The notes under the pieces are model-generated. The model was given only the letters and a program-made list of their open reading frames with translations, was not told the DNA's origin and ran no database searches. Shown piece after piece: positions 1,643 to 30,511 of a DNA stretch of 31,221 nt; the first letter of the stretch is position 1; each line of letters starts with the position of its first letter. Made by a program: the position numbers and the translations under genes. The DNA comes from an uncultured bacterium (GTDB taxonomy: Bacteria; Bacillota; Clostridia; Lachnospirales; Lachnospiraceae), in NCBI GenBank assembly GCA_905215155.1, contig CAJMPJ010000041.1, positions 1 through 31,221 on the forward strand, written 5' to 3'.

Positions 1643-1656
1643 ACCCTTATCTTTTC

Positions 1657-1685: not shown

Positions 1686-1721
1686 GATATGCAGGTTAAA
1701 AGAAATGGGAGCAAGAAAAGA

Positions 1722-2771: not shown

Positions 2772-3613
2772 AAAGTCCTCTCAACTATACCGGGGGAAAG
2801 TTTAAGATTTTAGAGCCTGTTTTCCAGGCATTTCCAAAGGATATCAGAACCTTTGTGGATGTTTTTGCAGGGGGGTTTAACGTAGGCATCAATGCCGAGG
2901 CAGAACGGATCATTTGCAACGACCAAATCACATATTTAATTGAATTATTTAAACTGTTTCAAAAAACGGAAATAAACGAACTCCTAGATGAAATTAAGGG
3001 ACTGATTGAAGAATACGGGCTGACCCAGCAGAATACGGAAGGGTACTATGCCCTGCGGTCGGACTATAATAAGACAAAGGATTTAACCCGGCTTTTTGTA
3101 CTGACCTGTTATGCCTTTAATCATCAGATCCGCTTTAATAACAGCCATGAGTTCAATTCTCCCTTTGGAAGAAACCGGAGTTCCTTTAATGGCAGCATCG
3201 AAAAGAACTTAACTCAGTTTTGCGAGGCACTTCATAAAAAGAACATTGAGTTTTCCAATCTGGATTTTACAGAGCTCAATTATTCCGGTCTTGGAAAAGA
3301 AGATCTGGTTTACTGTGACCCGCCCTATTTGATTTCCACAGGTAATTATAACGACGGCAACCGTGGGTTTAAGGACTGGAAGGAAAAGGAAGAACGGGAG
3401 CTTTTGGAACTGCTGGACACTCTGGATGCCAGAGGGGTCCGGTTTGCTTTATCCAATGTGCTGTATCACAAGGGACTGTCTAACGATCTTTTGATTGAAT
3501 GGAGTAAGAAGTATCACATTCATTACATTGATAAGACTTATTCCAACTGCAATTATCAGTTCAAAGAGCGGAATGCCGTTACAGTGGAAGTGCTGATAAC
3601 CAATTATAAATAA
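2762..3613 (+). CDS. D12-class DNA adenine N6-methyltransferase (second of pair)
   Basis: A second adenine methylase, 283 residues, of the Dam-like D12 class but clearly different from its neighbour. The N-terminus KSPLNYTGGKFKI is the family's SAM-side motif, followed by motif I FVDVFAGGFNVG (31-42) and catalytic motif IV DPPY at 186-189. The C-terminal half carries conserved NCNYQFKERN, as in phage and Dam-like members. It starts inside the last codons of the upstream methylase (10-bp overlap) and ends just before a strong terminator, closing a two-gene operon. The likely role is to methylate the complementary strand of the same asymmetric site. It may belong to a restriction-modification system that has lost its nuclease, or to an orphan epigenetic pair. 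Confidence 0.85.
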   Translation: MFIKSPLNYTGGKFKILEPVFQAFPKDIRTFVDVFAGGFNVGINAEAERIICNDQITYLIELFKLFQKTEINELLDEIKGLIEEYGLTQQNTEGYYALRSDYNKTKDLTRLFVLTCYAFNHQIRFNNSHEFNSPFGRNRSSFNGSIEKNLTQFCEALHKKNIEFSNLDFTELNYSGLGKEDLVYCDPPYLISTGNYNDGNRGFKDWKEKEERELLELLDTLDARGVRFALSNVLYHKGLSNDLLIEWSKKYHIHYIDKTYSNCNYQFKERNAVTVEVLITNYK

Positions 3614-14764: not shown

Positions 14765-15121
14765 CTCATGATCCTTTCGTGCAATTGAAATGCGACTTTT
14801 TTATCATCAGCAAAATACGGTTACAAAATTTCTGAAATGCAGTAATTTTCCGATTTATCTGTGATTGTATCACATCATTGCAAAATTTTCTATCAGAAAT
14901 AAAAACAAAATACATCGGGCAAGTGAATGATTCCCATAATGAATGAGTTGCTTTTGTTAATATTTTCCAAAAAGTATTGTTTGTTTCAAAAATTCGTTGA
15001 CGGCTATTACAAGAAACTTGATTTTTTCTGTACAACGTATTTCTGAAATGCTACAATCAAAGAAAGAGCCAGGCAAGTAATTCCTTATTATCTGCCCAAA
15101 CGAAAAAAGGAGGAACAACGG
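14765..15121. promoter_or_regulatory. Divergent AT-rich intergenic region with repeated palindrome
   Basis: About 357 bases between the FIST gene (minus) and a dehydrogenase gene (plus), with no credible gene. ATTTCTGAAATGC, whose first 11 bases form a palindrome (ATTTC-T-GAAAT), occurs at 14828-14840 and again at 15039-15051, one copy near each divergent gene. I could not place a convincing promoter for either gene with certainty. Confidence 0.45.
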
Positions 15122-15985
15122 ATGAAGAACATCGGATTTATTGGTGTGGGGATCATGGGAAAATCAATGGTACGCAACCTGTTGAAAGCAGGGTTTGAGG
15201 TGTCGGTCTATACCAGGACCAGAGAAAAGGCAGAGGAGGTCATAAAGGAAGGGGCAAAATGGTGTGAAGATGTAAAATCCTGTGCAAAAGGCAGAGATGC
15301 CGTGATCACCATCGTGGGATATCCTAAGGACGTAGAAGAGGTTTACTTTGGAGAAAATGGCATTTTATCCAGCGCAGATCCGGGAACTTATCTCATTGAT
15401 ATGACGACCACCAGCCCCAGGCTTGCGGTGCGGATTTATGAGGAAGCCAAAAAGAAGGGGTTAAATGCCCTGGATGCACCTGTTACCGGAGGGGATACCG
15501 GGGCAAGGGAAGGAACCCTTACCATACTGGCAGGGGGAGAAGAGAAAGCTTTTAACCACTGTCTGCCGGTGTTTGAAGCCATGGGAAAGGCCATCAAATA
15601 TCAGGGGATGGCAGGAAACGGCCAGCATACCAAGATGTGCAACCAGATCGCCATTGCCGGCGCCCTGTCCGGTGTCTGTGAAGCGTTGGCCTATGCAAAA
15701 GCCAATGGCCTTAATGAAAAGACTATGGTGGAATCCATCGGGACGGGAGCCGCAGGAAGCGCCCAGTTAAAGGCATTGGCCCCAAGAATTCTTGCCGGAG
15801 ATTTTGAACCGGGATTTTTTATCAAGCATTTTATCAAGGATATGAAAATCGCTGCAGAAGAATCCAGGGAGGCAGGGGTGCATCTGGGAGTGTTGGAATA
15901 CGTGCTTTCCATGTATGAAACCATGGCGGAACAGGGTCATGGAGACGAGGGGACTCAGGCATTGGTGAAATATTATTCGTGGTGA
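15122..15985 (+). CDS. NAD(P)-dependent beta-hydroxyacid dehydrogenase (3-hydroxyisobutyrate dehydrogenase family)
   Basis: Oxidoreductase of the 3-hydroxyisobutyrate dehydrogenase / tartronate semialdehyde reductase family, 287 residues. The Rossmann motif GVGIMGKSM lies at 8-16, the substrate-binding loop DAPVTGGDTGAREGTL in the middle, and the catalytic Lys is in GNGQHTKMCNQ. The C-terminal helical domain is complete. The substrate cannot be decided: candidates are 3-hydroxyisobutyrate, tartronate semialdehyde and succinic semialdehyde. The ribosome site AAAGGAGG is strong. It is a single gene bounded by the divergent region upstream and a bidirectional terminator downstream. Confidence 0.88.
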   Translation: MKNIGFIGVGIMGKSMVRNLLKAGFEVSVYTRTREKAEEVIKEGAKWCEDVKSCAKGRDAVITIVGYPKDVEEVYFGENGILSSADPGTYLIDMTTTSPRLAVRIYEEAKKKGLNALDAPVTGGDTGAREGTLTILAGGEEKAFNHCLPVFEAMGKAIKYQGMAGNGQHTKMCNQIAIAGALSGVCEALAYAKANGLNEKTMVESIGTGAAGSAQLKALAPRILAGDFEPGFFIKHFIKDMKIAAEESREAGVHLGVLEYVLSMYETMAEQGHGDEGTQALVKYYSW

Positions 15986-16025
15986 TGGAAAGACGGGCTG
16001 GTTTGTTCGTGTCTGCTTGCTGATA

Positions 16026-16065
16026 AAAAACGCAGGTCAGGAACCAAATCCTGAACTGCGTTTTT
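16026..16065. terminator. Bidirectional terminator between dehydrogenase and lepB
   Basis: AAAAACGCAG (16026-16035) pairs perfectly with CTGCGTTTTT (16056-16065), and CAGGA/TCCTG adds an inner stem. It serves both convergent genes. Confidence 0.9.
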
Positions 16066-16072
16066 AATGGAA

Positions 16073-16639
16073 TTATTGAATTTTCTTAATGGATGGAAAA
16101 TAGCGGAATAAGACCTTAGCAATGATCTTGTTCTTCTTCACATATTTATGATTCCATCTTCTGGCGTCTGCGGAAAAGTTCCGGTTGTCGCCCAGCATGA
16201 AATAAGAATCTTCCGGAACTTCAAAGTGTGCATCCGGTTCCGGTATCATAGGTTCCGGCAGATAGGGTTCCTCAAGCGGAGTTTCGGAATGATTTAAGTA
16301 GACCTTTCCGTTTCGGATATCAATGACATCTCCGGGAAGTCCGATGATACGTTTAACGTAATAGGTCTTACCGGTAGGATCATCCGGGAAATGGAAGATA
16401 ACCACATCTCCCCGCTGCGGATCAGAAAAATAATAGGACAGCCGGGAACCGATCACCCGGTCGCCTGTCATAATGGTCTGCTCCATAGAGCCGCTTGGCA
16501 CTCTGCTGTTGGCAATGATGAAATTGTTCAGTACAAATGCAATGGCGGCTGCAGTGATGATAATTTTAATCCAACTGATAAGTTCTTCTTTCCAGTGGAA
16601 CGGCTTTTGTTCATTCGGCATCGTTTTGTCTCTTTTCAT
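16073..16639 (-). CDS. lepB: Signal peptidase I
   Basis: Membrane protease that removes signal peptides from exported proteins. With the ATG at 16639 it has 188 residues; an ATG at 16621 (182 residues) is equally possible, and the longer frame to 16708 begins with TTG and is unlikely. One N-terminal membrane anchor (about 24-43) is followed by box B PSGSMEQTI with catalytic S51, box D with catalytic K97 (YYVKRIIGLPGD) and box E GDNRNFSADARRW. In box E the usual second Ser (SxDSR) is Ala. This Gram-positive-type enzyme would process the many exported proteins of the region, including the heme operon products. The gene is convergent with the dehydrogenase and divergent from mscS. Confidence 0.92.
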   Translation of the reverse strand: MKRDKTMPNEQKPFHWKEELISWIKIIITAAAIAFVLNNFIIANSRVPSGSMEQTIMTGDRVIGSRLSYYFSDPQRGDVVIFHFPDDPTGKTYYVKRIIGLPGDVIDIRNGKVYLNHSETPLEEPYLPEPMIPEPDAHFEVPEDSYFMLGDNRNFSADARRWNHKYVKKNKIIAKVLFRYFPSIKKIQ

Positions 16640-16796
16640 TTTATTTCTTATTTGGATTTCCTGGGTGGTTCCATTATTGAGTGTATATGAGTTTAAAGCA
16701 GAACGCAAGGGGATTCACAAAATGGTAAGAAAATATTCACAAACATATCACGGAATAGCCACATCGGGCTGGTAGGATAAAGGCCGGGGGTGGATA

Positions 16797-16825
16797 TTGA
16801 AAAATTTCCGGGGGAATGATAAAAT
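16797..16825 (+). promoter_or_regulatory. Sigma-A-type promoter of the MscS gene
   Basis: TTGAAA (16797-16802), a 17-base spacer and TAAAAT (16820-16825), about 40 bases before the start codon. Confidence 0.65.
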
Positions 16826-16866
16826 GATTTCCAGTTAGTAAAATATGTGAAGTTAGGAGATTGCGA

Positions 16867-17775
16867 ATGATATTGTATGCCCTTACCAGTTCGGCAGCCA
16901 ATGAGACTTTGACGGATATCGGGCAGGAGGTTCAGGAAAATTTAGAACAGCTAAAGCCTAATGTTCTATTTGAAACAATCAAAAGCTGGGGACCGGATCT
17001 GATCACGTTTGGGGTTAAACTTTTGATTGCCCTTTTGATTTTTTTTGCAGGTTCCAGAATCATAAAGCTTTTTTATCATATGCTGGAACGTTCCTTTAAA
17101 AAGATGGACATGGAGATCAGCTTAAGAAAATTTCTGCTGTCCGTATTGAATGCCGGTATGTATTGCCTTCTGGCATTTATCGTTGCAGGACAGATCGGTG
17201 TCAATTCCGCCTCCATCGTTGCGCTTCTCGGTTCTGCCAGTATCGCCATCGGACTGGCAATTAAGGGAAGTCTTGCCAATTTTGCGGGAGGGGTGCTGAT
17301 TCTGATGATGAAGCCTTTCCGGGTGGGAGACTATATCATTTCCCAGGAGGGAGAAGGAACGGTACAGACCATTGGTCTTGTTTACACGATTTTAACCACA
17401 GCCGATAATAAGCAGGTGGTCATTCCAAACGGGACTCTTTCCAATTCTGCGCTCACCAATGTGACGGCCATGAAAAACCGGAGACTTGATGTGCTTATAC
17501 GGATCAGCTATGGCTCAGATTTAAAAAGGGCCAAAGACGTTCTGGAGAAAATCATCAAAAACCACCCTGGTATCTTAAAAGAAGAGCCGATGGAGGTATT
17601 TGTCAGCGATTTAACCGATCAGGCGGTGATTCTGGGAGTCAGAGGCTGGACGATGATGGAAAATTACTGGACCGTCCGCGCAGAGGTGTTAGAACAGATC
17701 AAGCTCCGTCTGGATGAAGCCGGAATTGAGGTTCCTTATAATCTTTTATCCGTTTACGGAAAAGAAAAATCATAA
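16867..17775 (+). CDS. Small-conductance mechanosensitive channel (MscS family)
   Basis: Membrane channel opened by tension to release solutes on osmotic downshock. The protein has 302 residues from the ATG at 16867, which sits 6 bases after AGGAG; the TTG at 16861 is too close to that site. Three membrane helices (about 45-70, 90-115, 120-155) end in the pore helix with Gly/Ala packing (GSASIAIGLAIKGSLANFAGG), then VLILMMKPFRVGDYI, the family signature. The cytosolic vestibule has the beta domain (VVIPNGTLSNSALTN) and the C-terminal alpha-beta part. The length is close to E. coli MscS. The gene is monocistronic, with promoter and terminator both visible. Confidence 0.93.
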   Translation: MILYALTSSAANETLTDIGQEVQENLEQLKPNVLFETIKSWGPDLITFGVKLLIALLIFFAGSRIIKLFYHMLERSFKKMDMEISLRKFLLSVLNAGMYCLLAFIVAGQIGVNSASIVALLGSASIAIGLAIKGSLANFAGGVLILMMKPFRVGDYIISQEGEGTVQTIGLVYTILTTADNKQVVIPNGTLSNSALTNVTAMKNRRLDVLIRISYGSDLKRAKDVLEKIIKNHPGILKEEPMEVFVSDLTDQAVILGVRGWTMMENYWTVRAEVLEQIKLRLDEAGIEVPYNLLSVYGKEKS

Positions 17776-17799
17776 AATAAATGTCATATTGAGATAATT

Positions 17800-17839
17800 G
17801 GTCAAAAAGTTTGTTTTCAAAGACTTTTTGACCTTTTTT
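17800..17839 (+). terminator. Rho-independent terminator after mscS
   Basis: GGTCAAAAAGT (17800-17810) pairs with ACTTTTTGACC (17823-17833), followed by six T (17834-17839). Confidence 0.9.
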
Positions 17840-17915
17840 GTTATAATAAACCGTAAATTTTTGAAAAGGCCAATAAAGATGAGCATTGAGACCTAAATTC
17901 CAAGATTGAATCATA

Positions 17916-17945
17916 TTGAAAGTCCATTTTTTATAAATATATAAT
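17916..17945 (+). promoter_or_regulatory. Sigma-A promoter of the heme operon
   Basis: TTGAAA (17916-17921), an 18-base spacer and perfect TATAAT (17940-17945). It lies about 80 bases before srtB, with a palindromic operator between promoter and gene. Confidence 0.75.
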
Positions 17946-17989
17946 GCTAATGTGGAAAGGAAACGGATTAGTTTCTCTTTTTTTACCAA

Positions 17990-18012
17990 CAAGTTAGCAT
18001 AGGCTAACTTGG
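17990..18012 (+). promoter_or_regulatory. Palindromic operator resembling a DtxR/IdeR box
   Basis: Perfect 9-bp arms CAAGTTAGC (17990-17998) and GCTAACTTG (18003-18011) are separated by 4 bases. Within it, TTAGCATAGGCTAACTTGG (17994-18012) matches 14 of 19 positions of the classical DtxR/IdeR iron box as I recall it. It lies about 38 bases after the predicted transcript start, a good position for iron-dependent repression of the heme operon. The assigned regulator family is inference; another metalloregulator is possible. Confidence 0.55.
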
Positions 18013-18025
18013 ACGGAAAGGATGG

Positions 18026-18835
18026 ATGACGATGAATCTCGAAAAAGAGCTGAGACGGCTTCAGAAAAATCTAAAAAAGGTTACATATAAATCCATGTTA
18101 CAAAAGGCAGGCATTGGGACCGCAGTGGTGTGTACCGTGCTTCTTGGCAGATACTATTTGGAGACAAGCAGAGCAGAAGAAGCGGTGAATCAGCTTCGCC
18201 AGACGAAAGAGATTTCCCAAAGGGACGGCGCAGGTGAGACGGAGGCGGTTGGTGAGGAACGTGTGATGCCAGAGTATCAGACTTTATTTTCTGAAAATCC
18301 CGATCTGGAAGGCTGGCTTACCATTGAAGGGACGAAGGTGGATTATCCGGTCATGTGGACCCCGGAGGACCCGGAATATTACAGCCACCGGGGATTTGAT
18401 AAGGAGAAGAGCAAAAACGGACTTTTGTTTATGGATGAAGCCAGTGATATGTCAGAGCATGGGGGAAACATCATCATTTACGGTCACAACATGAAGAATG
18501 GTTCCATGTTTGCAGACCTTTTAAAGTATAAGGATGAGGATTACTATAAAGAGCACCCCCTGATCCGGCTGGATACGCTTTATGAAACAAGGACGTATGA
18601 GATCGCCAGTGTGGCGGCGGACAACGATCTGGAGGAACTTCCCTATGGTTTTACAAGTGCATCTGACCCGGAAGCAGAGAAGGCAATAGAAGCGATGGAG
18701 TCCAATTCCCTTTATGATACAGGAGTCGTTCTCACTTATGGAGATGATTGTTTGACCCTTTCCACCTGTGATTACAGCAAAGAAAACGGAAGGCTGGTGA
18801 TAATGGCAAGGAGGGCTGCGCCGGATGAAGATTAA
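18026..18835 (+). CDS. srtB: Class B sortase
   Basis: Membrane-anchored transpeptidase that joins surface proteins to peptidoglycan, 269 residues. One N-terminal membrane segment (about 27-44) is followed by a charged linker and the sortase fold. Catalytic residues are visible: H154 in IYGHNMKNGSMF, C248 in TLSTCDYSKENGR, and R256. The extra helix before the catalytic Cys and its position in a heme locus mark it as class B. It is the first gene of the heme operon; the likely substrate is the giant NEAT protein at 23346 with its IPYTG signal. The ATG at 18026 is close to GGAAAGG; an ATG at 18032 would have better spacing and remove two residues. The stop overlaps the next gene by 11 bp. Confidence 0.93.
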   Translation: MTMNLEKELRRLQKNLKKVTYKSMLQKAGIGTAVVCTVLLGRYYLETSRAEEAVNQLRQTKEISQRDGAGETEAVGEERVMPEYQTLFSENPDLEGWLTIEGTKVDYPVMWTPEDPEYYSHRGFDKEKSKNGLLFMDEASDMSEHGGNIIIYGHNMKNGSMFADLLKYKDEDYYKEHPLIRLDTLYETRTYEIASVAADNDLEELPYGFTSASDPEAEKAIEAMESNSLYDTGVVLTYGDDCLTLSTCDYSKENGRLVIMARRAAPDED

Positions 18836-19928
18836 AAAGAGACTGGTGGAAAAAAGAGCCGTGGCACGGATTCTCGCACTGGTTATGATGCAGGCTCTGG
18901 CAATCGGAGCGGTCCATCCGGTTTTGGTTTGGGCGGAGGAGGAAGGGACCTATCTGGTAACTATTACTCCCAGCTATAAGGACCCGGAGACAGGCAAGAT
19001 TGAAGATCCGGGCAATAATGAGGCCATCGGACAGGGAATGACCGAGCGCATGTGCGGTTCCACCGCACTTTTGGAGGTGGACGGTTCAGGGACCATGTAC
19101 CTTACGGTGCGGTATTATTTATCCAGGTTTATCCGTGATGTTACGTTTGAAGAGCGGGAAGGAGATTCCTATACGGAGCTGCCTTATCAGGAGGTTCAGT
19201 CAAAAACGGCAGAGGAAGGGGCTTCGGATCTTGGGGATAAGTATGGATATACGGATTACCGCATGAAAATAACCAGTCTGGATTCTGTATACCGGGGGAA
19301 AGCCTTTATAAAACCAGCGGAAAGAAATGTCGTTTTCTTTTTTACCGCAAAAGATCCGGTGGCAGGAAGCGGAGATTTTGTTACCGGAAAATCGGAAGAT
19401 TCCAAGGAAATACAATCAAAGAGCATGGAATCAAAGAGAACGGAATCGAAGAATAAGGCCAAGACCGCCGAAGAATTGCAGGAAGAAGAAAATGAAGCCT
19501 TGGGATTAAAAGAAAGTTCAGAGGAAAAAGTGCTTACTTTTGATGGGAAAGAAGAGGAGATGGGAAACGGCAGCGGGGAAGCAGATGATCCGGTAACCGG
19601 AATTCCGGAAAAACCTTCTTTAACATCAACAGCTCCAGAAAACATCCAAAACCAGAACGAAGCCATATCGTATCATCTGGATACGTCTTATGATTTATCC
19701 CAGGTTTCCATGGAAGAAGCCAGAAAGCAGACCAGCCAGATGTTAAAAGACGCGGTTGGAATTGTGACGGTGACAGGAACCCGGCCGGAAGAAGGGGGGA
19801 AACGGATACCAAAGCCCCAAGAGTCTGAAAACCGGAAGGTTATGATGGGGTTGTTTGGGGTATCCGCAGTTTTGGCAGCATTTATGGGACTGGGAGTTTT
19901 AAGACAGCGGCAGGGAGACAGACAATGA
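18825..19928 (+). CDS. Membrane-anchored Shp-like heme-binding protein
   Basis: Probable surface heme relay, 367 residues. The basic N-terminus and hydrophobic stretch (about 12-37, ending VWAEEE) form a signal peptide. Residues about 40-175 match my memory of the Shp-type heme-binding domain (GTYLVTITPSYKDPETG, then EAIGQGMTERM and a long beta region ending NVVFFF). In streptococcal Shp two Met residues hold the heme; here M72, M76 and M147 are candidates. A long Glu/Lys/Ser-rich stalk (about 185-335) leads to a C-terminal membrane helix (about 341-358) with a short basic tail and no sortase motif, so it is membrane-tethered rather than wall-linked. It is coupled to srtB (11-bp overlap) and to the next gene (ATGA overlap), fitting heme hand-over to the IsdE-like lipoprotein. 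Confidence 0.78.
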   Translation: MKIKKRLVEKRAVARILALVMMQALAIGAVHPVLVWAEEEGTYLVTITPSYKDPETGKIEDPGNNEAIGQGMTERMCGSTALLEVDGSGTMYLTVRYYLSRFIRDVTFEEREGDSYTELPYQEVQSKTAEEGASDLGDKYGYTDYRMKITSLDSVYRGKAFIKPAERNVVFFFTAKDPVAGSGDFVTGKSEDSKEIQSKSMESKRTESKNKAKTAEELQEEENEALGLKESSEEKVLTFDGKEEEMGNGSGEADDPVTGIPEKPSLTSTAPENIQNQNEAISYHLDTSYDLSQVSMEEARKQTSQMLKDAVGIVTVTGTRPEEGGKRIPKPQESENRKVMMGLFGVSAVLAAFMGLGVLRQRQGDRQ

Positions 19929-20818
19929 AAAGAAAAGGATTCATCAAAACAATGTTTGCAATTGTCGGTCTGACATCTGTTGTTCTTACCGGCTGTGTAG
20001 ACCAGACCGGTACAGGAGTCAGGAATACAGATGCCGGTAATCTTAAAATAGCGGCGGCCTCACCGGCGGTTACGGAACTCATGGCAAGGCTTGACATTGA
20101 TCTTGTTGGAGTGCCGGAGTCAGGCCTTTCTAAGATTCCCTCCCGCTATGACGGCGTTACCAGAATCGGCCTGGCCATGAATCCGGATGCAGAAGTCATA
20201 AAAACACTGGACCCGGATTATGTGGTGGGACCTTCGGCCCTTCAGTCTGATCTGCAGCCAAAGCTTGATGCGGCAGGAGTGAGCGGTGTATTTATAAATC
20301 TGGAAAGTGTGGAAGGGCTTTATAAGAGTGTGGAGGAGCTTGGGGAACTATTTGGAAGGCAGGAGGAAGCCCGGAAGATGACCGATGAGTTTTCCGCCTT
20401 CTATTATGAATACCGCAAGGTCAATCAGTTCAAGGAAAGTCCCAGAGTACTGGTTTTGATGGGGCTGCCGGGTTCCTATGTGGTGGCGACCGGCAAAAGC
20501 TATGTGGGAAGTCTGGTAAGGCTGGCAGGGGGGATCAATGTGTATGAAAACGAAGAAAAGAATTTCATTACGGCCAATACGGAGGATATGCAGTCAAAGG
20601 ATCCGGATATTATTTTAAGAGCCGCACATGCCATGCCAGAGGATGTGGTGCAGATGTTTCAGGACGAGTTTGAAACAAACGACATATGGAAGCATTTCCG
20701 GGCGGTCCGGGAGAAAGCGGTCTATGACCTTCCCTACGACCAGTTTGGCATGAGCGCCAAATTTAATTTTCCGGAAGCCCTGGAAACTCTGCAGCCAATG
20801 ATTTACGGGGAGGAATAG
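19925..20818 (+). CDS. isdE: Heme-binding lipoprotein, IsdE-like
   Basis: Substrate-binding lipoprotein of a heme ABC importer, 297 residues. The signal peptide ends with lipobox VLTGC, Cys24 being the lipidated residue. The fold is the two-lobed class III (FecB/BtuF) type. The heme ligands of S. aureus IsdE (a Met and a His) have clear counterparts: M85 in IGLAMNPDAEVIK and H235 in LRAAHAMPEDV, followed by the family phrase FETNDIWKHFRAV and VYDLPYDQFGMSAKF. It overlaps the Shp-like gene by ATGA and is 2 bases from the permease gene, so it is surely co-transcribed. It probably receives heme from the Shp-like protein and delivers it to the permease. Confidence 0.92.
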   Translation: MKRKGFIKTMFAIVGLTSVVLTGCVDQTGTGVRNTDAGNLKIAAASPAVTELMARLDIDLVGVPESGLSKIPSRYDGVTRIGLAMNPDAEVIKTLDPDYVVGPSALQSDLQPKLDAAGVSGVFINLESVEGLYKSVEELGELFGRQEEARKMTDEFSAFYYEYRKVNQFKESPRVLVLMGLPGSYVVATGKSYVGSLVRLAGGINVYENEEKNFITANTEDMQSKDPDIILRAAHAMPEDVVQMFQDEFETNDIWKHFRAVREKAVYDLPYDQFGMSAKFNFPEALETLQPMIYGEE

Positions 20819-20820
20819 GT

Positions 20821-21843
20821 ATGACAGAAATCAGTGTGCAAAGCCATAAGAAGGCGGAGGCAGGCAGTTATAAAGGATTCTATTTCCTGGGACTGGGGCT
20901 TTTGTTTCTCATCACCGTTTTTATATCGGTAAACACAGGAAGTCTGAACATTTCCATAAAACAGCTTCTTTCCGGTTTGTTTGTAAAATATGATCCCGAT
21001 GTGGCCGCTGTCTGGGACCTGCGGTTTCCCAGAATTTTCATCGCCTCTCTCGGCGGTGCAGCCCTTTCCGTATCAGGCGTTCTTTTTCAGGCATGTATGA
21101 AAAATCCCATTGCAGACCCGGGAATTATGGGAGTCAGTGCCGGGGCAGGTTTTGTGTCGGTGCTGATTGCAGGAATGTTTCCTTCCCTGTATTTTTTTAT
21201 TCCCTTCTTTGCCTTTGCCGGAGGGGTCGTCTCCTGCGTGCTTGTGTATCTTCTGGCATTTAAAAACGGCTTAAATCCTCTGCGGGTCATTCTTGTGGGA
21301 GTGGCGGTCAATGCAGTATTTACAGGGCTTACCCAGGCATTTCACTCCATGACAGGCGGAAATTTGACAGGAGCTGCCTCCATTGCCAATATTTCACAGA
21401 AAACCTGGGAGGATGTGTACATGATCTCCGGATATGTGGTGCTTGGCCTGGTGTTGGCCTTTGGGTCATTTTATTCCTGCGATCTGCTGTCATTGAGCGA
21501 TCAGACCGCCAGAGGGCTTGGGGTCCATGTGACCACAGCCAGGATTTCCGTTTCTTTCATCGCTGTGGTGCTGGCCGGCATTTCCACGGCTGAGATGGGG
21601 GTGGTTTCCTTTATCGGGTTGATCGTTCCTCATATTGCAAGACTTTTGGTTGGCTCAAGCCATAAGGTTCTTATCCCGTTTTCCATGCTGGGCGGAGCGT
21701 TTCTCATGCTGCTGGCAGACACCTTGGGGCGGACCATTGCAGCCCCCTATGAAATATCCGCCTCCATTCTGTTTTCCATTGTGGGCGGCCCCATGCTGAT
21801 AATTTTGATTCGCAGGAGTGAGGAAATTTATGGCGTGCAGTGA
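20821..21843 (+). CDS. isdF: Heme ABC transporter permease, IsdF-like
   Basis: FecCD-family membrane permease of 340 residues with about nine to ten helices. Family landmarks: LRFPRIFIASLGGAALSVSG, then QACMKNPIADPGIMGVSAGAG, the cytosolic coupling loop, and the C-terminal VVSFIGLIVPHIARLLVGSS and LADTLGR regions. Partner of the IsdE-like lipoprotein and the ATPase that follows, with which it overlaps by 14 bp. The substrate heme is inferred from the IsdE ligands and the operon; siderophore permeases share this fold. Confidence 0.92.
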   Translation: MTEISVQSHKKAEAGSYKGFYFLGLGLLFLITVFISVNTGSLNISIKQLLSGLFVKYDPDVAAVWDLRFPRIFIASLGGAALSVSGVLFQACMKNPIADPGIMGVSAGAGFVSVLIAGMFPSLYFFIPFFAFAGGVVSCVLVYLLAFKNGLNPLRVILVGVAVNAVFTGLTQAFHSMTGGNLTGAASIANISQKTWEDVYMISGYVVLGLVLAFGSFYSCDLLSLSDQTARGLGVHVTTARISVSFIAVVLAGISTAEMGVVSFIGLIVPHIARLLVGSSHKVLIPFSMLGGAFLMLLADTLGRTIAAPYEISASILFSIVGGPMLIILIRRSEEIYGVQ

Positions 21844-22651
21844 AGAAATTGTGATGAGAGCGGAAAACTTAACCTTTTCCTATGACGGGCTAAATAACAT
21901 CATAGAGGACTTAGAGCTTTCCATCCGGCAGGGGAAAATCACCGTATTGATGGGAGCCAATGGCTGCGGGAAAAGTACGCTGTTTCATTTGCTGACAAAG
22001 AATCTGATTCCTGATCAGGGCAGGATTTTACTTGGGGAAATGGACATTGAAGACATGAGACGGAAAGAATTTGCAAAACAGGCTGCCATTGTCCATCAAG
22101 ACAATACGGTACCTGCAGATTTAACGGTCAACAGGCTGGTTGGCTATGGACGGACGCCCTATTTTCATTCCTTTCAGACTGCAGGCACCAGGGAGGATGA
22201 GGACATCATTAACTGGGCTATGGAGGTGACGGATTTACGGTCCATAAAAAATCAGCGTGTTTCCCAGCTTTCCGGGGGCCAGAGGCAGAGAGTCTTTATC
22301 GCTATGGCGCTTGCCCAGAAAACAAAGATATTATTTCTCGACGAACCCACCACGTATCTGGATATCCGGTATCAAATCGAGATTATGAAGCTGGTGCAAA
22401 GACTGAATAAAGAGTATGGGATCACCGTTATTATGGTGCTTCATGACATCAATCAGGCCATGGAATACGGGGATATCTTTGTGGGCATGAAGCATGGAAC
22501 CATCGTGGCAGAGGGGCCGCCTGAAGAAGTGATTGATTGTGAAATTCTTCACGAACTTTATGGAATCCGCCTTCCGGTGGTTGAGGTGGGGGGCCGGAAG
22601 TTTGTGCTTCCGGTTGAATCATTTGCCTCAATGGAATTGCCGGAGGAATAA
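21830..22651 (+). CDS. Heme/iron ABC transporter ATPase
   Basis: ATPase of the FecE/FhuC type, 273 residues from the ATG at 21830; an upstream in-frame GTG (21818) lies inside the ribosome site and is rejected. Walker A is GANGCGKS (42-49), the signature LSGGQRQR begins near residue 147, Walker B is ILFLDEPTTYLD (167-178), and the switch His is in LHDINQAMEYGD. It drives the IsdF-like permease; S. aureus borrows FhuC for the same job, whereas here the ATPase is in the operon. It is followed by a 143-base gap with a small hairpin and then the secreted-protein gene. Confidence 0.93.
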   Translation: MACSEEIVMRAENLTFSYDGLNNIIEDLELSIRQGKITVLMGANGCGKSTLFHLLTKNLIPDQGRILLGEMDIEDMRRKEFAKQAAIVHQDNTVPADLTVNRLVGYGRTPYFHSFQTAGTREDEDIINWAMEVTDLRSIKNQRVSQLSGGQRQRVFIAMALAQKTKILFLDEPTTYLDIRYQIEIMKLVQRLNKEYGITVIMVLHDINQAMEYGDIFVGMKHGTIVAEGPPEEVIDCEILHELYGIRLPVVEVGGRKFVLPVESFASMELPEE

Positions 22652-23345: not shown

Positions 23346-26300
23346 ATGAAAAGCAAACTGTTAAGAATCGTTCTCATGTCAGCCCTTTTTCTGCTTCCTG
23401 CAACCGTCTGGGCAGAGATAAATACAAACGTCCCGGCAAGTACTACTTTGCAGTCTGGGGAACCAATAACGGGAGAGCAGCAGATTGTACCGTTAGAAAT
23501 CTACAGCGGAAACGATACCTATGCGAAAAAGGAGGAACTGGGTACACCAAGAAACCAAATCGGTGAAACCGCGTTGGTAAAAAAAGTAACAGATGGGTAT
23601 CAGGTGACCCTGCGCATCGGTTCTTATCATCTCCTTAATATGATACAGGTTGTAAAGGAAGAAAAGGCGGCTCAAGTACTTGAGAAGGACAATAAATTGA
23701 CGCAGGGAGAATTCTGGAGGCTTCCCACTGGAACTTTCACATATTGGGAGGGTGGGGAAGATCGTTACAATGCCTGGGTTTCAGAAGGAGAGGTAAACGG
23801 AGAATACAATGATTATTACCTGCCAAAGGACCAGGTGATTTTAAACAGTGATGCCGATCCGGATATGGATGCCGGCACCGTAACCATTAAGGTAAAAGAT
23901 TTAGAAAATCCAATATTAATAAAGACTTATTCTGATTTTTATGGGAAACAAAAGGATTCAAACGAAGAATATCCGACCGCGCAGATCATTTCATTAAAAC
24001 CAGAAAGTGCAGTCAATGGTGAAGCCTTAACTGAAGGAGAGTATTCCTGCACAATCAAATGGATGGGCTTTAAAGAAAATGTAAGTTTAGCGGAAACAAC
24101 TCATATCCGGGGCAGTCAGGCGGGGGCGGACAGTTTTTTTGCAAAAGGATTTGCAGACAATGCCTCCGTTAAGGTAGACGCAAACGGAAACATGTTTGCA
24201 GTGCTTACCATAAAGCAGCTGCAGGAAGGTGCTTTTGATGAAATTGTTAAAATGGAACGGGCAGTAAGCAGAAATACTTCCGATCAGGAGAGCTTTACGG
24301 GGGAAGACGTAAGAAAGCTGCTGACAGAGTATGATGCAGAATATGAAGAACTTGAAATCAAGGACGGGCAGGTAATCATACCTGTGCGTGATTTAATATA
24401 TGGGCAGGGAGTGCGGATCACGACAAAACATCTGCAGGAGTCCAATCAGGGAAAAAGCCCTGAAAACCAACAGTATCACTGTGCATTTTTGCATATCTGG
24501 CCGGTAGAAGCAGACGAAAAGGCAGTCTATTGGGACCCGGACACCGGAGTTTCCGTGGTGTATGATAAAAGGGATTTTCCAGGAGGTGCACCACAGATTG
24601 ATGTGACAAAGGAAGCGGATTATTTAACAGAATCCACACTTCATAGTTATGCGTGTTTTTCAAAAGATTACAAAACCTATACCTTTCACATGTTAGATAA
24701 CAAGGGAGAGATGACCGATACCGTCAATCCGGTGAAGAAGGTTATCCCAATTCCTGAGGGCTGGAATATTGACACGATGAGGATTTTCCGTCTGGGTGCG
24801 GATAAGGCATCCGCTGAATTTTCTCCATACCAATATTTCAATGAAGAAAAAAATGAACTGGTATTTTCAGATCATACCAGGGGTAGCAACAACTGCACTT
24901 TGATTCTTTACGATGCGGGAACGGCAGAAACCGCCGAAGGCCTGGAGGACGGGATATACAAAACCAAAGTGGGAATCGGCCATAAGGATGATTCTTTGCG
25001 GGTATCTCTGGCAAATGCGGCATTTGCAGCAAAGGATGCTTATATTGAAGTAAAGGATGGCCTTGCCACCTTGTATACAGAGATAGGAAACGCCTCCTTT
25101 GGAACCCAGTCCGGCTTCTTGAGCAATATGTTTTATTGGAATGATGGAAATTATGAGACCAAAAAGGAAGTCACTTATTTAAAGTATGGCACAGATGATG
25201 CCGGAAATGTGCGTACCAACACGGACGGAAAGAAATATATGGTCTTTGAAGTGGAACGAGTATCCTTCCCTCTTAGGAAGCCTACAAAAAGCAATACATA
25301 CTGGGTCAGCTTTTTCATTCCTGCAATGGATGGAATCGCAGGCGGATTGCCGGGCAGCGGAAAATCAGAGCAGTCGGCTCAGGTGCGGTTATCCCGGATT
25401 GAAAAGGTGGAAAACGGCGAAAATCCCATTCACGGGTACGACCAAAGTGTTGTTTTCGCAGGTGCTTCCAAACTTGAATTTTTGGGTGAAAACGGTAGCT
25501 GGACCCATGAAAAGGCTGCCTATGCAAAACGGATCAGTCAGGAGACAAGAGAGCAGTTAGAAAATGGTACTGTTGTTACGGAAAATCAGGAAGCAGTTGC
25601 TCATGCGCGGTCCATTTTAAACGCTGCTTATAACGCTCTGGCCCTGGAACAGGGGATCTATGAGATTCCGGTAATGAATACGGAGGATTGGAACGATTAT
25701 AAAATACCCGTAAACGTGGCGATCAAAGGCAAAACCATGACAGTGCAGCTTGAAAAAGCGGATCAGACCCTTATGCCAACGGTTGAATACCATGGGGATT
25801 ATGGGGAGTATCAAACCGATGCCATCGTATCCGGGGATGGGAAACTTGTGAGTTTTTCCCTTCCCTATACGGAAGCACCTCTTTTCGTAAAGACGGCTTT
25901 AGAAGAACGTGCCCTGTCTTTGGATTTTGCCAATGCAAAACGTATGAGTGCAGATATATCATCTCTGAAGCATCTTCTTGCTAAGGCAAAAGAGCTCCTG
26001 TCAGGGGAAACCAAATACACTTCAAGCACTGAAAAAAAACTGACCGATGAAATTAAATATACAGAGGCTCTTATAGAAACTTTTGATGCCGAGCAGACCA
26101 AGATCAATGATCAGAATGAGTCCCTTCAGCTGGCCATAGACGGCCTTTTGGAAAGGGCCAGTTTGGCACAGTTAAAAAGGGATCTCATTCAGGCCGTCAA
26201 AGCGTCTAAAAATACAGACTATACGGAAAAAAGCAGAAAGAAGCTGGCATCTCTCATCAATGAGATACAAAAAAAGACACAGAAAGAAGACGATGTCAGC

Positions 26301-29300
26301 AAGGCAGATGAAGATCATTACAGAAACCAGCTTGAGGAAGGAATGGCTGCTTTAAAGAAAGAAGGCGGCAATGAAGGAAGTGACACTGAATCGGATGGAA
26401 GCTTAAAATCCTTTTTAAAAGATTATGATTCCTGGGTAAAGGAAGAAAACTTTACAAAAGAATCCTGGGATGAATATGAAAAATCAAAGTCTGAGGCAGA
26501 ATACCTGCTTTCTAAGGGAGATTTAACAAAAGCAGAGGAAGAAGAAGCGATTCAGAATCTATTGGAAGCGAGAAATAAGCTGATTGCAGAAACCGGAACA
26601 CAGAGCCGTCTGGCCTGCCTGAGTGAGACGCTGGAAGAGATCGAAGACCGATCCTGTGAATACGCAGGTCTTTTGACTTATGATTCGCTGGAAGCCGCGA
26701 TGGAAGCAGCCAAACTGGCCATAGAAGGAAACTATTATTTGACGAATCAGGAGATAACCCTGCTTCAGAAATCACTGGAAGCTCATGAAAAGGTCTGTGA
26801 AGCTGAAGCCAACGGCCAGGCGGAGCCAGAGAGTCTGAAAATGGATATTCCTGAGCTTTCGTTGGAAGATTTAGAGGAACTCGAAGAAAAGAAAACGGTC
26901 AATCTGCCGGAAAAGACAATGCCAGAATCAGAACCAGAGACTGGTGCAGATGGGATAAAAGAAGAACGCACGAAGGAAGCAGAAACTAAGGGAGAAGCGG
27001 AAAGCATGGAAGAAGCGGAAACCAAGGCACAAGCAGGAACCAAGGAAGAAGCGGAAACAAAGTCAAATGAAGAGACAAAGGAAGAAGCAGAAACAAAGGA
27101 AGAAGCAGAAACAAAGGAAGAAGCAGAAACAAAGGAAGAAGCAGAAACGAAGGAAGAAGCAGAAACGAAGGAAGAAGCAGAAACGAAGGAAGAAACAGAA
27201 ACGAAGGAAGAAGCGGAAACGAAGGCAAAAGCAGAAACAAGGGCAAATGCGGAAAGCAAACCAGAAGCAGAAACTAAGGCAAAAACAGAGACCAAGGCAA
27301 AAGCAGAAGCCAAAGAAAAAGCTAGAACAAGGGCAAAGTCAGAATCTAAGCCAAAAACAGATGCTAAGTCAAAAACAGAAACTAATCCTATAACAAAAGT
27401 TAGGTTAATTACACAAGCCAGCACAAAATTAAGCCCAGCCCTGCCCACCAACAGCAGTAAGGAAAATGCACAAAAAAAATTCGTAACTTCAGCTGGCATT
27501 TCCCGAAATACCCCACACGTTCTAACAGCCGCAGACTCTGCTGACACAAAAAAGAATGGAACCTATTCCGTTGATTACGATCTATGGAAATGGAATGAAA
27601 ATAATGCTTCCATGGGCAATGCTGCATTGGATTATGGAACTGAGCCTGGGAAAATAATCCTTGACCATGGGAAATGGACTCTCTATGTCCATTTGAATAA
27701 GATAAAATTTGATGGGTTTGAGGGCAGCTTAAGAACCATGAAAAAGGTCATAGACCGAAAGGAAAATGAGGACGGTATTTCTTATAAGACACAGAAGGCA
27801 GACTACCCAGAGTCCATAACGGATTATCCTGATATTTTAGGTTTTGTTGTCACCCCTCAAAGCGGAAAGCAGTATACATATCTGCCGATAGAAGTGGAAG
27901 TAGATGTACCGGGAATGGCACTTCCAGCCCAGATTGCAAGACTTCGGGTGGATTGGAACAGTCTGGACTATATGAACGGTTCCACAGACATAGATTCCTC
28001 CCTGGACCTTGAAAACCTGCAAAAAGCCATACGGAAGGCAGAAAAGCTGGAAGCAAAGAAATCCTCCTATACCCCATTTAGCTGGAAGGTATTAACGGAG
28101 AGCATAAAGGCAGCAAAGGAAATCAAAGTCTCCGACCTGATGACTCAGGAGATGGCAGACAGTGAGGCAAAGGCTATTGAAGCAAGCATTGACGCTTTGG
28201 TCCCTGTGGCAGACGAAAGCACCATGTCAAATTTAAGCAGTACACTGTTGGAAGCCTATCTGGCCGAAGAATCGGATTACAGCATCAATGCCTGGAAAGA
28301 ACTGGAGCGGGCAAAAACGTTTGCGGAGAGTATACAGGAAGCGGATTATGTGACAGAGGGGATGGTGAAGCAGGCGGTTTTAAGTCTTACCTCAGCAATC
28401 GACCGGACGGCGGGCTGCAGAGACAGGGACAAAGAAGGATTAAGCACTTCGGTTCTTGAGAGGTTGATCCGTCTGGCAGAAAAAGAAACAGAAGAAACTT
28501 ATACCAGGGAGAGCTGGAAGGACCTTGAGTCAGCTTTAAAGGGGGCAAAATCAATTCTTATCAAGGCGGCAAAAAATCAGTGCACGCAGGGAGAAATTGA
28601 TGAACAGATCTTACTGCTTAAAAAGGCTTATAAAAGCTTAAAAAAGAAACAAAAACCAGATACCGGTACAGGAACCGTTAATTTTAAGTATTTAAAAGCA
28701 TTGATAAAAAGGTCTGAAGAATTCTTAGCACAAACTTCAAAATATACGGATGAATCCATTCGCAGGCTTATGATAGAGTATGATGCTGCAGTCACAATGC
28801 TGAAGGATGATTCCGTTACACAAGCGGATGTAGAGAAACAAAAGGAAAAACTCTGTACGGCAATCAAAGCACTGGCATTGGTGTCCGGCAGCTCCGGCGG
28901 CGTTGAGAATGACAGCGGTGGAGGAAGTGACGGCACAAGCAGAAGCAACGGCACAAGTAGAAGCAACGGCCAAAGTGGAAGCAGTAGAAGTAAAAGCAGG
29001 CACAAGGACGGTTATTATAAAGTAAAAGTACGACTGTGGCATGCGACGATGAACAAAGCCTCGGCAGGGGCATCGGCAATCATATCCACCGCCTATATGC
29101 AGATCGAAGATGATGAGGTTACTATGCGTCTGCAGACCAAAAACATGTCACTCAGCGGCATTACCGCCCATCTCCACGATTTTTATATCTATGATGGTGA
29201 TGATTATGAAGCTGCGGAATTGGTTTCTACGGAAGATAATAAATGGATTTATGAATTTAAATTACCTGATGACGACAGTAAGTATTATAAATGTAAGGTT

Positions 29301-30191
29301 GATCCCCAGGTAGAGGTTATGGGAACCGATCCGGTTAAAGCGCGTCTCAGGGTTGACTGGGGGTCTTTAAACAAATCCAAGGAGGAAGCATGGGATAAAT
29401 TAACTGGTGATGTAGATGAGGATAAAGATGACTCCGCAAAAAACGGGTCCGGTACAGGAACCAGTGTCACAGAATTAATCAGCGCTGAGACCGGAATCAG
29501 GATTAAAGGGAATACCGGAGGGCCGGCGGTAACCATGGAAGCGAGCAAAAAGACCAGCGGAACCGAGTATGAAAAGGCTCATACCATGTTAAGCAAAACA
29601 GCCAGCCAGTTTGTTCTGTACGATATCAAACTGAAAGCCGGGTCAGGATACATACAGCCAAAGGAATCAGTCACACTCCGGATTCCTGTTCCCACAGGGT
29701 TTGACACGGAAAAGCTGGTCCTTTACCGGATCAACGGCGACGGCGTAAAAGAAGAGATCAACGGCAGGCTGAACGGAAGTTATTATGAAGCCAGCGTGGA
29801 CCATTTCACTCTCTTTGCTCTGGCAGAAAGCGGCCGTGTAATTGCCGCTGCTTCCCCAATGGGAAACGCCAGACCGGAAGATAAAAAAGCCCGAAACCGA
29901 ACAAAAACCACTTCCGGCCGCAGCAAAAGTCTGAAAGCCTTATCAAAGGACAGCACCAAGAAAGAGGAAAGGGAGGACTCTGCTTCCCAGCAGATTGGAG
30001 ACGGACGTGTGATTCCTTACACCGGGGACCGGACGCCGGTATCAGGGCTAGTGGGAGCAGAAGCCCTGTCAATTCTCCTCCTTTTGATCTGTGCCCCCAT
30101 GAATGAGGTGCTGTGGGCTTTGAGGGGAAAATCAATGGAGCAGGGATCTCATAAACGAAAAATGAAGCATGAGAAGGAAACAGACGCATGA
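23346..30191 (+). CDS. Giant cell-wall-anchored NEAT/FIVAR-like heme protein
   Basis: Surface protein of 2281 residues. Signal peptide 1-23. Residues about 70-860 hold five beta-rich modules (starts near 70, 230, 428, 534, 767), at least two of them NEAT-like (DGIYKTKVGIGHKDDSLRV; EQGIYEIPVMNTEDWNDYK). Residues 865-1171 hold helical FIVAR-like repeats, 1188-1351 a Glu/Lys/Ala/Thr stalk, and 1402-1541 a good NEAT-like domain (GTYSVDYDLWKWNENNASMG). More FIVAR-like repeats (1551-1848), a Gly/Ser/Asn linker, a second good NEAT-like domain (1886-2008) and a C-terminal beta domain (2040-2162) follow. The end carries sorting signal IPYTG (2223-2227), a hydrophobic helix and a basic tail, fitting the operon's sortase B. 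The classical YxxxY motif is missing in both good NEAT-like domains; M1423/M1524 and M1902/M1992 are candidate ligands. Likely role: capture of heme or hemoprotein and transfer inward. Domain edges are estimates. Confidence 0.87.
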   Translation: MKSKLLRIVLMSALFLLPATVWAEINTNVPASTTLQSGEPITGEQQIVPLEIYSGNDTYAKKEELGTPRNQIGETALVKKVTDGYQVTLRIGSYHLLNMIQVVKEEKAAQVLEKDNKLTQGEFWRLPTGTFTYWEGGEDRYNAWVSEGEVNGEYNDYYLPKDQVILNSDADPDMDAGTVTIKVKDLENPILIKTYSDFYGKQKDSNEEYPTAQIISLKPESAVNGEALTEGEYSCTIKWMGFKENVSLAETTHIRGSQAGADSFFAKGFADNASVKVDANGNMFAVLTIKQLQEGAFDEIVKMERAVSRNTSDQESFTGEDVRKLLTEYDAEYEELEIKDGQVIIPVRDLIYGQGVRITTKHLQESNQGKSPENQQYHCAFLHIWPVEADEKAVYWDPDTGVSVVYDKRDFPGGAPQIDVTKEADYLTESTLHSYACFSKDYKTYTFHMLDNKGEMTDTVNPVKKVIPIPEGWNIDTMRIFRLGADKASAEFSPYQYFNEEKNELVFSDHTRGSNNCTLILYDAGTAETAEGLEDGIYKTKVGIGHKDDSLRVSLANAAFAAKDAYIEVKDGLATLYTEIGNASFGTQSGFLSNMFYWNDGNYETKKEVTYLKYGTDDAGNVRTNTDGKKYMVFEVERVSFPLRKPTKSNTYWVSFFIPAMDGIAGGLPGSGKSEQSAQVRLSRIEKVENGENPIHGYDQSVVFAGASKLEFLGENGSWTHEKAAYAKRISQETREQLENGTVVTENQEAVAHARSILNAAYNALALEQGIYEIPVMNTEDWNDYKIPVNVAIKGKTMTVQLEKADQTLMPTVEYHGDYGEYQTDAIVSGDGKLVSFSLPYTEAPLFVKTALEERALSLDFANAKRMSADISSLKHLLAKAKELLSGETKYTSSTEKKLTDEIKYTEALIETFDAEQTKINDQNESLQLAIDGLLERASLAQLKRDLIQAVKASKNTDYTEKSRKKLASLINEIQKKTQKEDDVSKADEDHYRNQLEEGMAALKKEGGNEGSDTESDGSLKSFLKDYDSWVKEENFTKESWDEYEKSKSEAEYLLSKGDLTKAEEEEAIQNLLEARNKLIAETGTQSRLACLSETLEEIEDRSCEYAGLLTYDSLEAAMEAAKLAIEGNYYLTNQEITLLQKSLEAHEKVCEAEANGQAEPESLKMDIPELSLEDLEELEEKKTVNLPEKTMPESEPETGADGIKEERTKEAETKGEAESMEEAETKAQAGTKEEAETKSNEETKEEAETKEEAETKEEAETKEEAETKEEAETKEEAETKEETETKEEAETKAKAETRANAESKPEAETKAKTETKAKAEAKEKARTRAKSESKPKTDAKSKTETNPITKVRLITQASTKLSPALPTNSSKENAQKKFVTSAGISRNTPHVLTAADSADTKKNGTYSVDYDLWKWNENNASMGNAALDYGTEPGKIILDHGKWTLYVHLNKIKFDGFEGSLRTMKKVIDRKENEDGISYKTQKADYPESITDYPDILGFVVTPQSGKQYTYLPIEVEVDVPGMALPAQIARLRVDWNSLDYMNGSTDIDSSLDLENLQKAIRKAEKLEAKKSSYTPFSWKVLTESIKAAKEIKVSDLMTQEMADSEAKAIEASIDALVPVADESTMSNLSSTLLEAYLAEESDYSINAWKELERAKTFAESIQEADYVTEGMVKQAVLSLTSAIDRTAGCRDRDKEGLSTSVLERLIRLAEKETEETYTRESWKDLESALKGAKSILIKAAKNQCTQGEIDEQILLLKKAYKSLKKKQKPDTGTGTVNFKYLKALIKRSEEFLAQTSKYTDESIRRLMIEYDAAVTMLKDDSVTQADVEKQKEKLCTAIKALALVSGSSGGVENDSGGGSDGTSRSNGTSRSNGQSGSSRSKSRHKDGYYKVKVRLWHATMNKASAGASAIISTAYMQIEDDEVTMRLQTKNMSLSGITAHLHDFYIYDGDDYEAAELVSTEDNKWIYEFKLPDDDSKYYKCKVDPQVEVMGTDPVKARLRVDWGSLNKSKEEAWDKLTGDVDEDKDDSAKNGSGTGTSVTELISAETGIRIKGNTGGPAVTMEASKKTSGTEYEKAHTMLSKTASQFVLYDIKLKAGSGYIQPKESVTLRIPVPTGFDTEKLVLYRINGDGVKEEINGRLNGSYYEASVDHFTLFALAESGRVIAAASPMGNARPEDKKARNRTKTTSGRSKSLKALSKDSTKKEEREDSASQQIGDGRVIPYTGDRTPVSGLVGAEALSILLLLICAPMNEVLWALRGKSMEQGSHKRKMKHEKETDA
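27075..27236 (+). repeat. 18-bp in-frame tandem repeat, about nine units
   Basis: The unit ACAAAGGAAGAAGCAGAA encodes TKEEAE. Units 1-4 are identical; units 5-8 carry ACG instead of ACA for Thr, with single changes in units 7 (Ala to Thr) and 8; unit 9 is degenerate. The shared silent change shows that blocks were copied together. Degenerate versions extend over about 26930-27400 and form the charged stalk of the giant protein. Copy number may vary between strains by slippage without a frameshift. Confidence 0.92.
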
Positions 30192-30511
30192 ATGTCCAGG
30201 AAAAAAAAGAACGTGAGATGCAGATTACCTATCATATGATCGCATTATACTGCAGGAAAAAGCATGGAACAAAAAAAGAACTGTGCGGCGATTGCAGAGA
30301 ACTGGAAGCTTACGCCCGCAGCAAAACGGAAAGCTGTCCTTTTATGGAGACAAAGACCTTCTGCTCTCAATGCAAAGTACACTGCTACCGGGCGGATATG
30401 AGAGAGAGAATCCGGGAAGTTATGCGGTTTTCCGGGATGCGATTGATTTTCAAACATCCGGTCATGGTCACCCGGCATTTAATCGAAACCCAAAAGGCAG
30501 GGAAACAGTGA
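30188..30511 (+). CDS. YgbA/NOsP-family cysteine-rich protein
   Basis: Small cytosolic protein of 107 residues of the family called nitrous-oxide-stimulated promoter protein (YgbA in E. coli). Seven Cys stand in conserved patterns: C22, C33-x2-C36 (CGDC), C50, C59-x2-C62-x3-C66 (CSQCKVHCYRADMRE), which suggest metal or Fe-S binding. YgbA has been linked to recovery from nitrosative stress and iron limitation; the biochemical role is not settled. Its start overlaps the stop of the giant gene (ATGA), so it is the last gene of the heme operon. A role in iron handling after heme import is plausible but inferred from context. Confidence 0.82.
   Translation: MNVQEKKEREMQITYHMIALYCRKKHGTKKELCGDCRELEAYARSKTESCPFMETKTFCSQCKVHCYRADMRERIREVMRFSGMRLIFKHPVMVTRHLIETQKAGKQ

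Follow-up and report, generated by a model that had tools for sequence, protein, structure and literature searches.

The locus described here raises the question of how heme could be held by NEAT domains that lack the tyrosine motif YxxxY. It lies in a stretch of 31,221 nucleotides, referred to as the window, which encodes a giant surface protein together with a Shp homologue, a heme lipoprotein and an ABC transporter. The original prediction had named two NEAT-like domains of the giant (A and B), each with one Met in the lip (M1423, M1902) and one at a late site (M1524, M1992), and had proposed a surface relay based on methionine. The Tyr motif is indeed missing from the relay, which is not, however, bis-Met throughout. 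Judged by the residues at the two ligand positions, one of its four domains (A) is bis-Met and three are single-Met, namely a further NEAT domain of the giant (N), domain B and the Shp homologue.

Organization of the locus

All six smaller genes of the relay locus lie upstream of the giant gene on the same strand (Table 1). The sortase scored 152.8 bits against TIGR03064, slightly below the cut-off of 153.75. Genes for the sortase, Shp homologue, IsdE-type lipoprotein, permease and ATPase were found together by tblastn in all five related loci that were fetched (L001-L005), and the giant was recognized in three of these (L001, L004, and L005); the small secreted-looking protein was not found in the five by tblastn. 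Homologues occur in records labelled Lachnospiraceae, Clostridiales, and Eubacteriales, among others, and for the small protein one record names Lacrimispora sp., which makes a Lachnospiraceae source likely. No plasmid match was obtained by megablast for positions 19925-22651, and Rfam returned 0 matches at gathering scores. A gene for a YgbA-type protein (30188-30511; PF11756, 136 bits) overlaps the final four bases of the giant gene, and two adjacent, overlapping genes for D12-class adenine methyltransferases are located at 1623-3613.

Table 1. Features of the putative heme relay locus, with positions in the window.
Feature	Position	Strand	Basis or residues
Sortase, probably class B	18026..18835	+	PF04203 61.1 bits, cut-off 26.6
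Shp homologue, 367 aa	18825..19928	+	PF11545 123.9 bits, cut-off 26.4
IsdE/HtsA-type heme lipoprotein	19925..20818	+	TIGR03659 363.9 bits, cut-off 298.65
ABC transporter permease	20821..21843	+	Named from sequence and position; adjoins IsdE in 5/5 related loci (tblastn)
ABC transporter ATPase	21818..22651	+	Named from sequence and position; in 5/5 related loci (tblastn)
Small secreted-looking protein, 149 aa	22795..23244	+	7 homologues, alignment
Giant surface protein, 2281 aa	23346..30191	+	ORF translation
NEAT domain N, residues 530-690	24933..25415	+	Lip Ser554-Leu555, late Met661
NEAT domain A, residues 1404-1545	27555..27980	+	Lip Ser1422-Met1423, late Met1524; bis-Met candidate
Codon Met1423, lip ligand candidate	27612..27614	+	Met in 29/29 orthologues
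Codon Met1524, late ligand candidate	27915..27917	+	Met 21/29, Ala 8/29 orthologues
NEAT domain B, residues 1888-2011	29007..29378	+	Lip Ser1906-Ala1907, late Met1992; single-Met candidate
Codon Met1902, lip ligand of the original prediction	29049..29051	+	Met 19, Lys 8, Leu 2 of 29; five residues before lip site
Codon Ala1907, homologue of lip Met	29064..29066	+	Met 15, Ala 9, Leu 5 of 29 orthologues
Codon Met1992, late ligand candidate	29319..29321	+	Met in 29/29 orthologues

The giant surface protein

The giant comprises three NEAT domains (N, A, and B) and KEEAET-type repeats, and a signal peptide, an IPYTGD-type sorting signal and a hydrophobic tail were read by eye. Domain N had been missed by the original prediction. 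Against the Pfam NEAT family (PF05031) the whole protein scored 31.3 bits over two stretches, 1.5 bits short of the cut-off of 32.8; an orthologue of domain B from genome G004 scored 38.4 bits, above the cut-off. NEAT was the sole Pfam domain matched by the giant up to a threshold of E=1. A phmmer search of the PDB with the single domains gave no significant match (best 0.086 for A and 0.38 for B), and AlphaFold2 models of both domains adopt the NEAT beta-sandwich fold. The Shr NEAT structures 9W5Y and 9W5Z were absent among the best 50 matches listed by VIA and Foldseek for these models.

Translation places Met at residues 1423, 1524, 1902, and 1992, in exact agreement with the four residues originally named. 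YxxxY strings occur in the giant at residues 154, 195, 329, 815, and 1407 and nowhere else, the last of these lying in the first strand of domain A. None was found by a string search in the late-strand region of any of the three NEAT domains, so that these are not of the Tyr (Isd) type and the reported lack of the classical motif in A and B was correct. Met makes up 1.9% of the giant (43/2281), and from this content two preset positions would both be Met by chance with a frequency of approximately 4e-4 per domain.

Other features of the giants were observed. Approximately 20 copies of an 18-bp repeat at 26976-27385, immediately ahead of domain A, encode KEEAET-type repeats. Residues ~770-865 (25653-25940) resemble a further NEAT-like module without Ser-Met, and in the G004 giant PF05031 matches a region at a comparable distance from the start (L089). 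The giant of L005 is split over two overlapping ORFs in different frames (14979-18362 and 18211-21165, both +).

Domain A as the bis-Met candidate

Over its whole length, the family profile of domain A matched Shr NEAT2 of S. pyogenes (9W5Y; E=8.4e-28); in this alignment the Ser-Met lips coincide and V-P-V-M is paired with V-P-I-M. The aligned Met residues of the 9W5Y chain (28 and 138) are 110 apart, which is the spacing of Met997 and Met1107, described as the axial heme ligands of Shr NEAT2 (PMC12796733); for Shr NEAT1 the same account gives the Ser389-Met390 lip and Met475. The comparison with Shr NEAT domains that the original prediction had suggested thus places both Met residues of A on the Met997/Met1107 motif positions. 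Conservation among the 29 orthologous giants used for the counts in A and B was complete for M1423 and M1992 and partial for M1524 (21) and M1902 (19).

The AlphaFold2 model of A shows a lip helix at 1423-1427 that is opened by M1423; confidence was lower near the lip, with mean pLDDT of 77 and 69 over domain residues 21-40, which include M1423. The stretch from the beta7 Tyr to the late Met is two residues longer in A than in some relatives (e.g., P0007 and P0009), bringing M1524 nearer to beta8, and in one alignment (A2) P1522, rather than M1524, stands opposite the late Met of these two relatives. The register of M1524 therefore depends on a two-residue gap, with the V-P-x-M motif and the gapped alignments taken as its anchor. 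Bis-Met ligation in domain A, a candidate by homology to Shr NEAT2, is well supported by these comparisons.

Domains N and B

In hhalign, domain N matched the family of A with E=5.7e-19, and the N family profile matched 9W5Y (E=1.1e-10) with both motifs in the register of A. The orthologue table for N, from which identical cores were dropped and in which only rows with E under 1e-5 were kept, lists 24 domains, whose lip residue is Met in 11, Leu in 6, and Ala in 7.

Domains A and B align without gaps through the lip ('NNASMGNAAL' on 'NKASAGASAI'), such that Ser1422-Met1423 is opposite Ser1906-Ala1907; the family-to-family comparison by hhalign (E=2e-27) likewise put M1423 opposite A1907. The best match of the domain B profile was IsdX1 (E=5e-9); Shr NEAT2 was matched over the first half of B (E=1.5e-5). 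In the model of B, mean pLDDT was 70 over domain residues 101-110, which include M1992. A late Met between beta7 and beta8 is present in N (M661), A, and B, and a Met follows the lip Ser in A and not in N (Leu555) or B (Ala1907).

The other Met residues of A and B are conserved to differing degrees: M1543 and M1918 in 0/29 orthologues, M1465 in 18/29, and M1927 and M1934 of B in 29/29. Invariance alone was set aside as evidence of a ligand, given that M1927 and M1934 are as invariant as M1992, and is considered suggestive of ligation, not decisive.

The Shp homologue, the lipoprotein and the small protein

In the Shp homologue, aligned with S. pyogenes Shp (2q7a), the lip IGQGM is conserved and M72 lies opposite chain residue 38, while the late site (chain residue 125) is occupied by Ala165. 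The two chain residues are 87 apart, as are Met66 and Met153, the numbering given for the Shp ligands (PMC5026354). The Met candidates that had been seen in this protein are therefore reduced to one, M72 on Met66, and by these residues the protein is not bis-Met. Across 103 Shp homologues, including that of the window, the lip Met is universal (103/103) and the late site is Met in 75, Pro in 18, and Ala in 10. The 38 Shp-type rows from fetched loci were all Met/Met at lip and late site; among them L004 and L092 represent a single gene, and the 103 probably include L001-L005 as well.

For the IsdE/HtsA-type lipoprotein, alignment with 2q8p and 5joq gives Met85 and His235 as candidate ligands; their counterparts in 2q8p, likewise a Met and a His, are taken to be the heme ligands of IsdE. 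For HtsA the pair is given as Met-79/His-229 (PMC5026354).

The small 149-aa protein has an invariant APMGQ-(D/N)-CV motif (8/8 aligned sequences). Its lip-like APMGQ led to its consideration as a NEAT or Shp domain, and this was rejected: hhalign gave a probability of at most 8.7% against the A, B, and Shp families, and the best of these matches was within the signal peptide. A profile search of the PDB gave nothing below E=0.07, and the late Tyr of the protein is Phe or Ala in some homologues. Three of the seven homologues pair with window-clade giants (P0001, P0003, and P0006; pairing presumed). In these three cases the small protein would go with giants of the window clade, whose relay domains have lost Met ligands.

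Ligand pattern across orthologues and clades

The lip residues of N and B vary together: both were Met in 11 and both non-Met in 13 of the orthologues with a listed N, a concordance of 24/24. Relatives with complete pairs were found in the fetched loci. Met/Met in N, A, B, and Shp was read from linked DNA for L004 and L005 (domain B of these genomes in L006 and L009), and Met/Met in N and Shp for L001. Linkage was presumed, not read from DNA, for seven pairs of giant and Shp orthologues, in which the bis-Met giants P0044, P0047, P0068, P0091, and P0116 go with a Met/Met Shp and the window-clade giants P0038 and P0039 with a Met/Ala Shp, as in the window.

A second clade (P0021 and P0023-P0029) has another combination of lip/late residues, with Ala at the late site of A (Met/Ala) and at the lip of B and, where listed, of N (both Ala/Met). 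In a tree built without the ligand columns, this clade and the window clade were sisters with support of only 0.56; one or two origins are thus possible, and the 24 concordant orthologues are not 24 independent cases. The concordant lip losses may go back to one or two events followed by inheritance within a clade. An order-wide search, in which 30/392 genomes matched, revealed no Pro-type Shp sharing a genome with second-clade giants and no close relatives of these giants beyond G004. Within the genus of G004, a Shp homologue was found in 1/25 genomes, G004 itself, indicating that the system is sporadic. A minus-strand ORF of L012 (residues 16-633) contains four NEAT domains with Met/Pro, Ala/Met, Met/Gly, and Met/Met at lip/late sites, a further instance of mixed ligands.

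Survey of NEAT loci

A class-level draw of 341 genomes yielded PF05031 matches in 23 and a total of 30 loci (second loci for seven), including the Shp-type L064 and domain B of G004 (L049). Motif strings were picked by eye and then checked by script, with YxxxY sought in residues 70-150 of each stretch. The lip Met was present in 25/30 loci, the late Met in 27/30, and both in 24/30, the exceptions being L041, L054, L056, L057, L058, and L063; these survey loci, like those below, are not independent samples. The lip was Ser-Met in 22 loci and had another residue before Met in L055, L060, and L061. YxxxY was found in the late region of 0/30 class-draw loci; a looser expression also found it in L038, C-terminal to the domain.

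A phylum-level draw (398 genomes, 13 matched) gave 30 loci, five of them read before and 25 new. The script found YxxxY in 8/25, of which seven, from G857 and G891, are true, showing that this reading is able to detect Tyr types; the eighth (L078) was dismissed as coincidental since it sits before an IPMG motif. Three of the seven true YxxxY loci (L067, L076, and L084) have a Ser-Met lip, and a lip Met alone is therefore no marker of a bis-Met domain. The survey suggests that loci of the class to which the window's relatives belong usually carry a lip Met together with a late Met. Among clostridia, bis-Met may be the default, from which the clade of the window lost one ligand in each of three domains; no published statement of a class-wide bis-Met state was found in the open-access literature searched.

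A putative heme relay and alternative readings

The reading that we hold with fair confidence is a Shr/Shp-type heme relay in which all four domains descend from bis-Met domains, A having kept both Met residues and N, B, and Shp one each. The giant would take up heme and pass it among its own NEAT domains, as in Shr-Shp-HtsABC, and then to the membrane-anchored Shp homologue, from which it would reach the IsdE/HtsA-type lipoprotein (Met85/His235) and the ABC importer. In the ancestral domains, the iron would have been held from both faces by the Met of the beta7-beta8 turn and by a lip Met, preceded by Ser in the case of N, A, and B, and bis-Met would be the older state. N and B would have lost the lip Met and kept the late one, and Shp the reverse. 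Heme would be held by two Met residues in domain A and by one in N, B, and Shp, in a more open state that would permit easier exchange; the open face could speed transfer or take a ligand from a partner. Single-Met domains could still bind heme, since the M997S and M1107S single mutants of Shr NEAT2 are reported to bind it comparably to wild type and the double mutant drastically less (PMC12796733).

Alternatively, N and B might no longer bind heme and instead serve hemoglobin binding, spacing or anchoring, leaving A and Shp as the only carriers. Each of the two domains is without one of its two ligands, and hemoglobin-binding NEAT domains without the heme motif are described for IsdB and IsdH (PMC7815599). 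The retention of the late Met in B (29/29) and in N (24/24 with a listed N), and of the lip Ser in the window, would be unexpected for an idle pocket, however, and this reading is regarded as rather unlikely.

Ligation in B could also be bis-Met, as had been predicted, with M1902 as a displaced lip ligand. The prediction of a Met at lip and late sites stood for M1423, M1524, and M1992 but failed for M1902: the alignments identify A1907 as the lip site, and in the model of B the lip helix is 1909-1911 with M1902 in the preceding loop, ruling it out as the homologous lip ligand. M1902 could still stand in for that ligand, since the window and 6/6 close orthologues (P0001-P0006), all without the lip Met, retain it. 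Yet it also occurs beside the lip Met in 13/15 lip-Met orthologues and is Lys in the eight orthologues of the other clade without a lip Met, behavior unlike that of a simple substitute. Bis-Met ligation in both A and B by this route appears improbable.

The remaining alternative, that the late Met residues contact the heme edge and that the iron is bound by no residue or by a different one (a beta8 Phe, for example), has its basis in a C. botulinum model in which Met-101 of the beta7-beta8 loop is near a vinyl group and Phe-108 a possible ligand (Honsa et al. 2014, PMC4143258). This homology model predates the Shr NEAT structures, in which the V-P-x-M Met is an axial ligand in 9W5Y (PMC12796733), and the same authors also suggest that the loop Met may compensate for a missing ligand (PMC4143258). 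The ten residues after the late Met contain no Phe in N, A, or B. Given the 2025 Shr structures, the axial-ligand reading of the late Met would now be the simpler one, and edge contact alone is improbable as well.

A bolder extension of the favored relay is that open single-Met domains replaced closed, six-coordinate bis-Met ones in this lineage, with one Met contributed by the donor (N or B) and one by the acceptor (Shp), so that a bis-Met site would form only across the hand-over interface. It draws on the ligand positions of Shr and Shp, by which the remaining Met residues would lie on opposite faces in N and B versus Shp, and is highly speculative; if true, heme transfer would be partner-specific. 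The same logic could apply to the second clade with its other combination, which we consider a similarly long shot.

Relation to known heme uptake systems

Shr is described as a surface protein that hands heme to Shp (PMC12796733). The domains of the window resemble S. pyogenes Shr NEAT2 (9W5Y) and NEAT1 (9W5Z) in NEAT family, Ser-Met lip, and late Met (PMC12796733). Unlike Shr, the giant has three such domains, two of them without the lip Met, as well as KEEAET repeats. The Shp homologue is similar to S. pyogenes Shp in its PF11545 domain and its lip with the Met66 equivalent but differs at the Met153 equivalent, which is Ala or Pro in 28/103 homologues.

Among clostridia, C. perfringens ChtD and ChtE are described as heme-binding NEAT surface proteins without the invariant Tyr pair (PMC5026354), a likeness of published description rather than of sequence or gene order; that 2016 paper notes that ChtE keeps the Shp Met residues, the ligands there being inferred (PMC5026354). 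The Clostridial Group NEAT domains of Honsa et al. (2014) are likewise described as lacking YXXXY and having a conserved Met in an extended beta7-beta8 loop, with an SXXXXY lip in 33/51 (PMC4143258), although the roles proposed for Phe-108 and Met-101 differ from the reading given here. In IsdX1/IsdX2/IsdC-type domains, heme is reported to be coordinated by the Tyr of YxxxY in beta8 (PMC7815599), of which the domains of the window have none. The 2025 Shr paper sets Met ligation in S. pyogenes against tyrosinate ligation in S. aureus, B. anthracis, and L. monocytogenes (PMC12796733).

These findings suggest that ligand loss can affect several domains within a single heme relay. The puzzle raised in 2014, how heme is held in clostridial NEAT domains that lack YxxxY, becomes directly testable, and natural bis-Met and single-Met relays provide material for asking what purpose the second Met serves.
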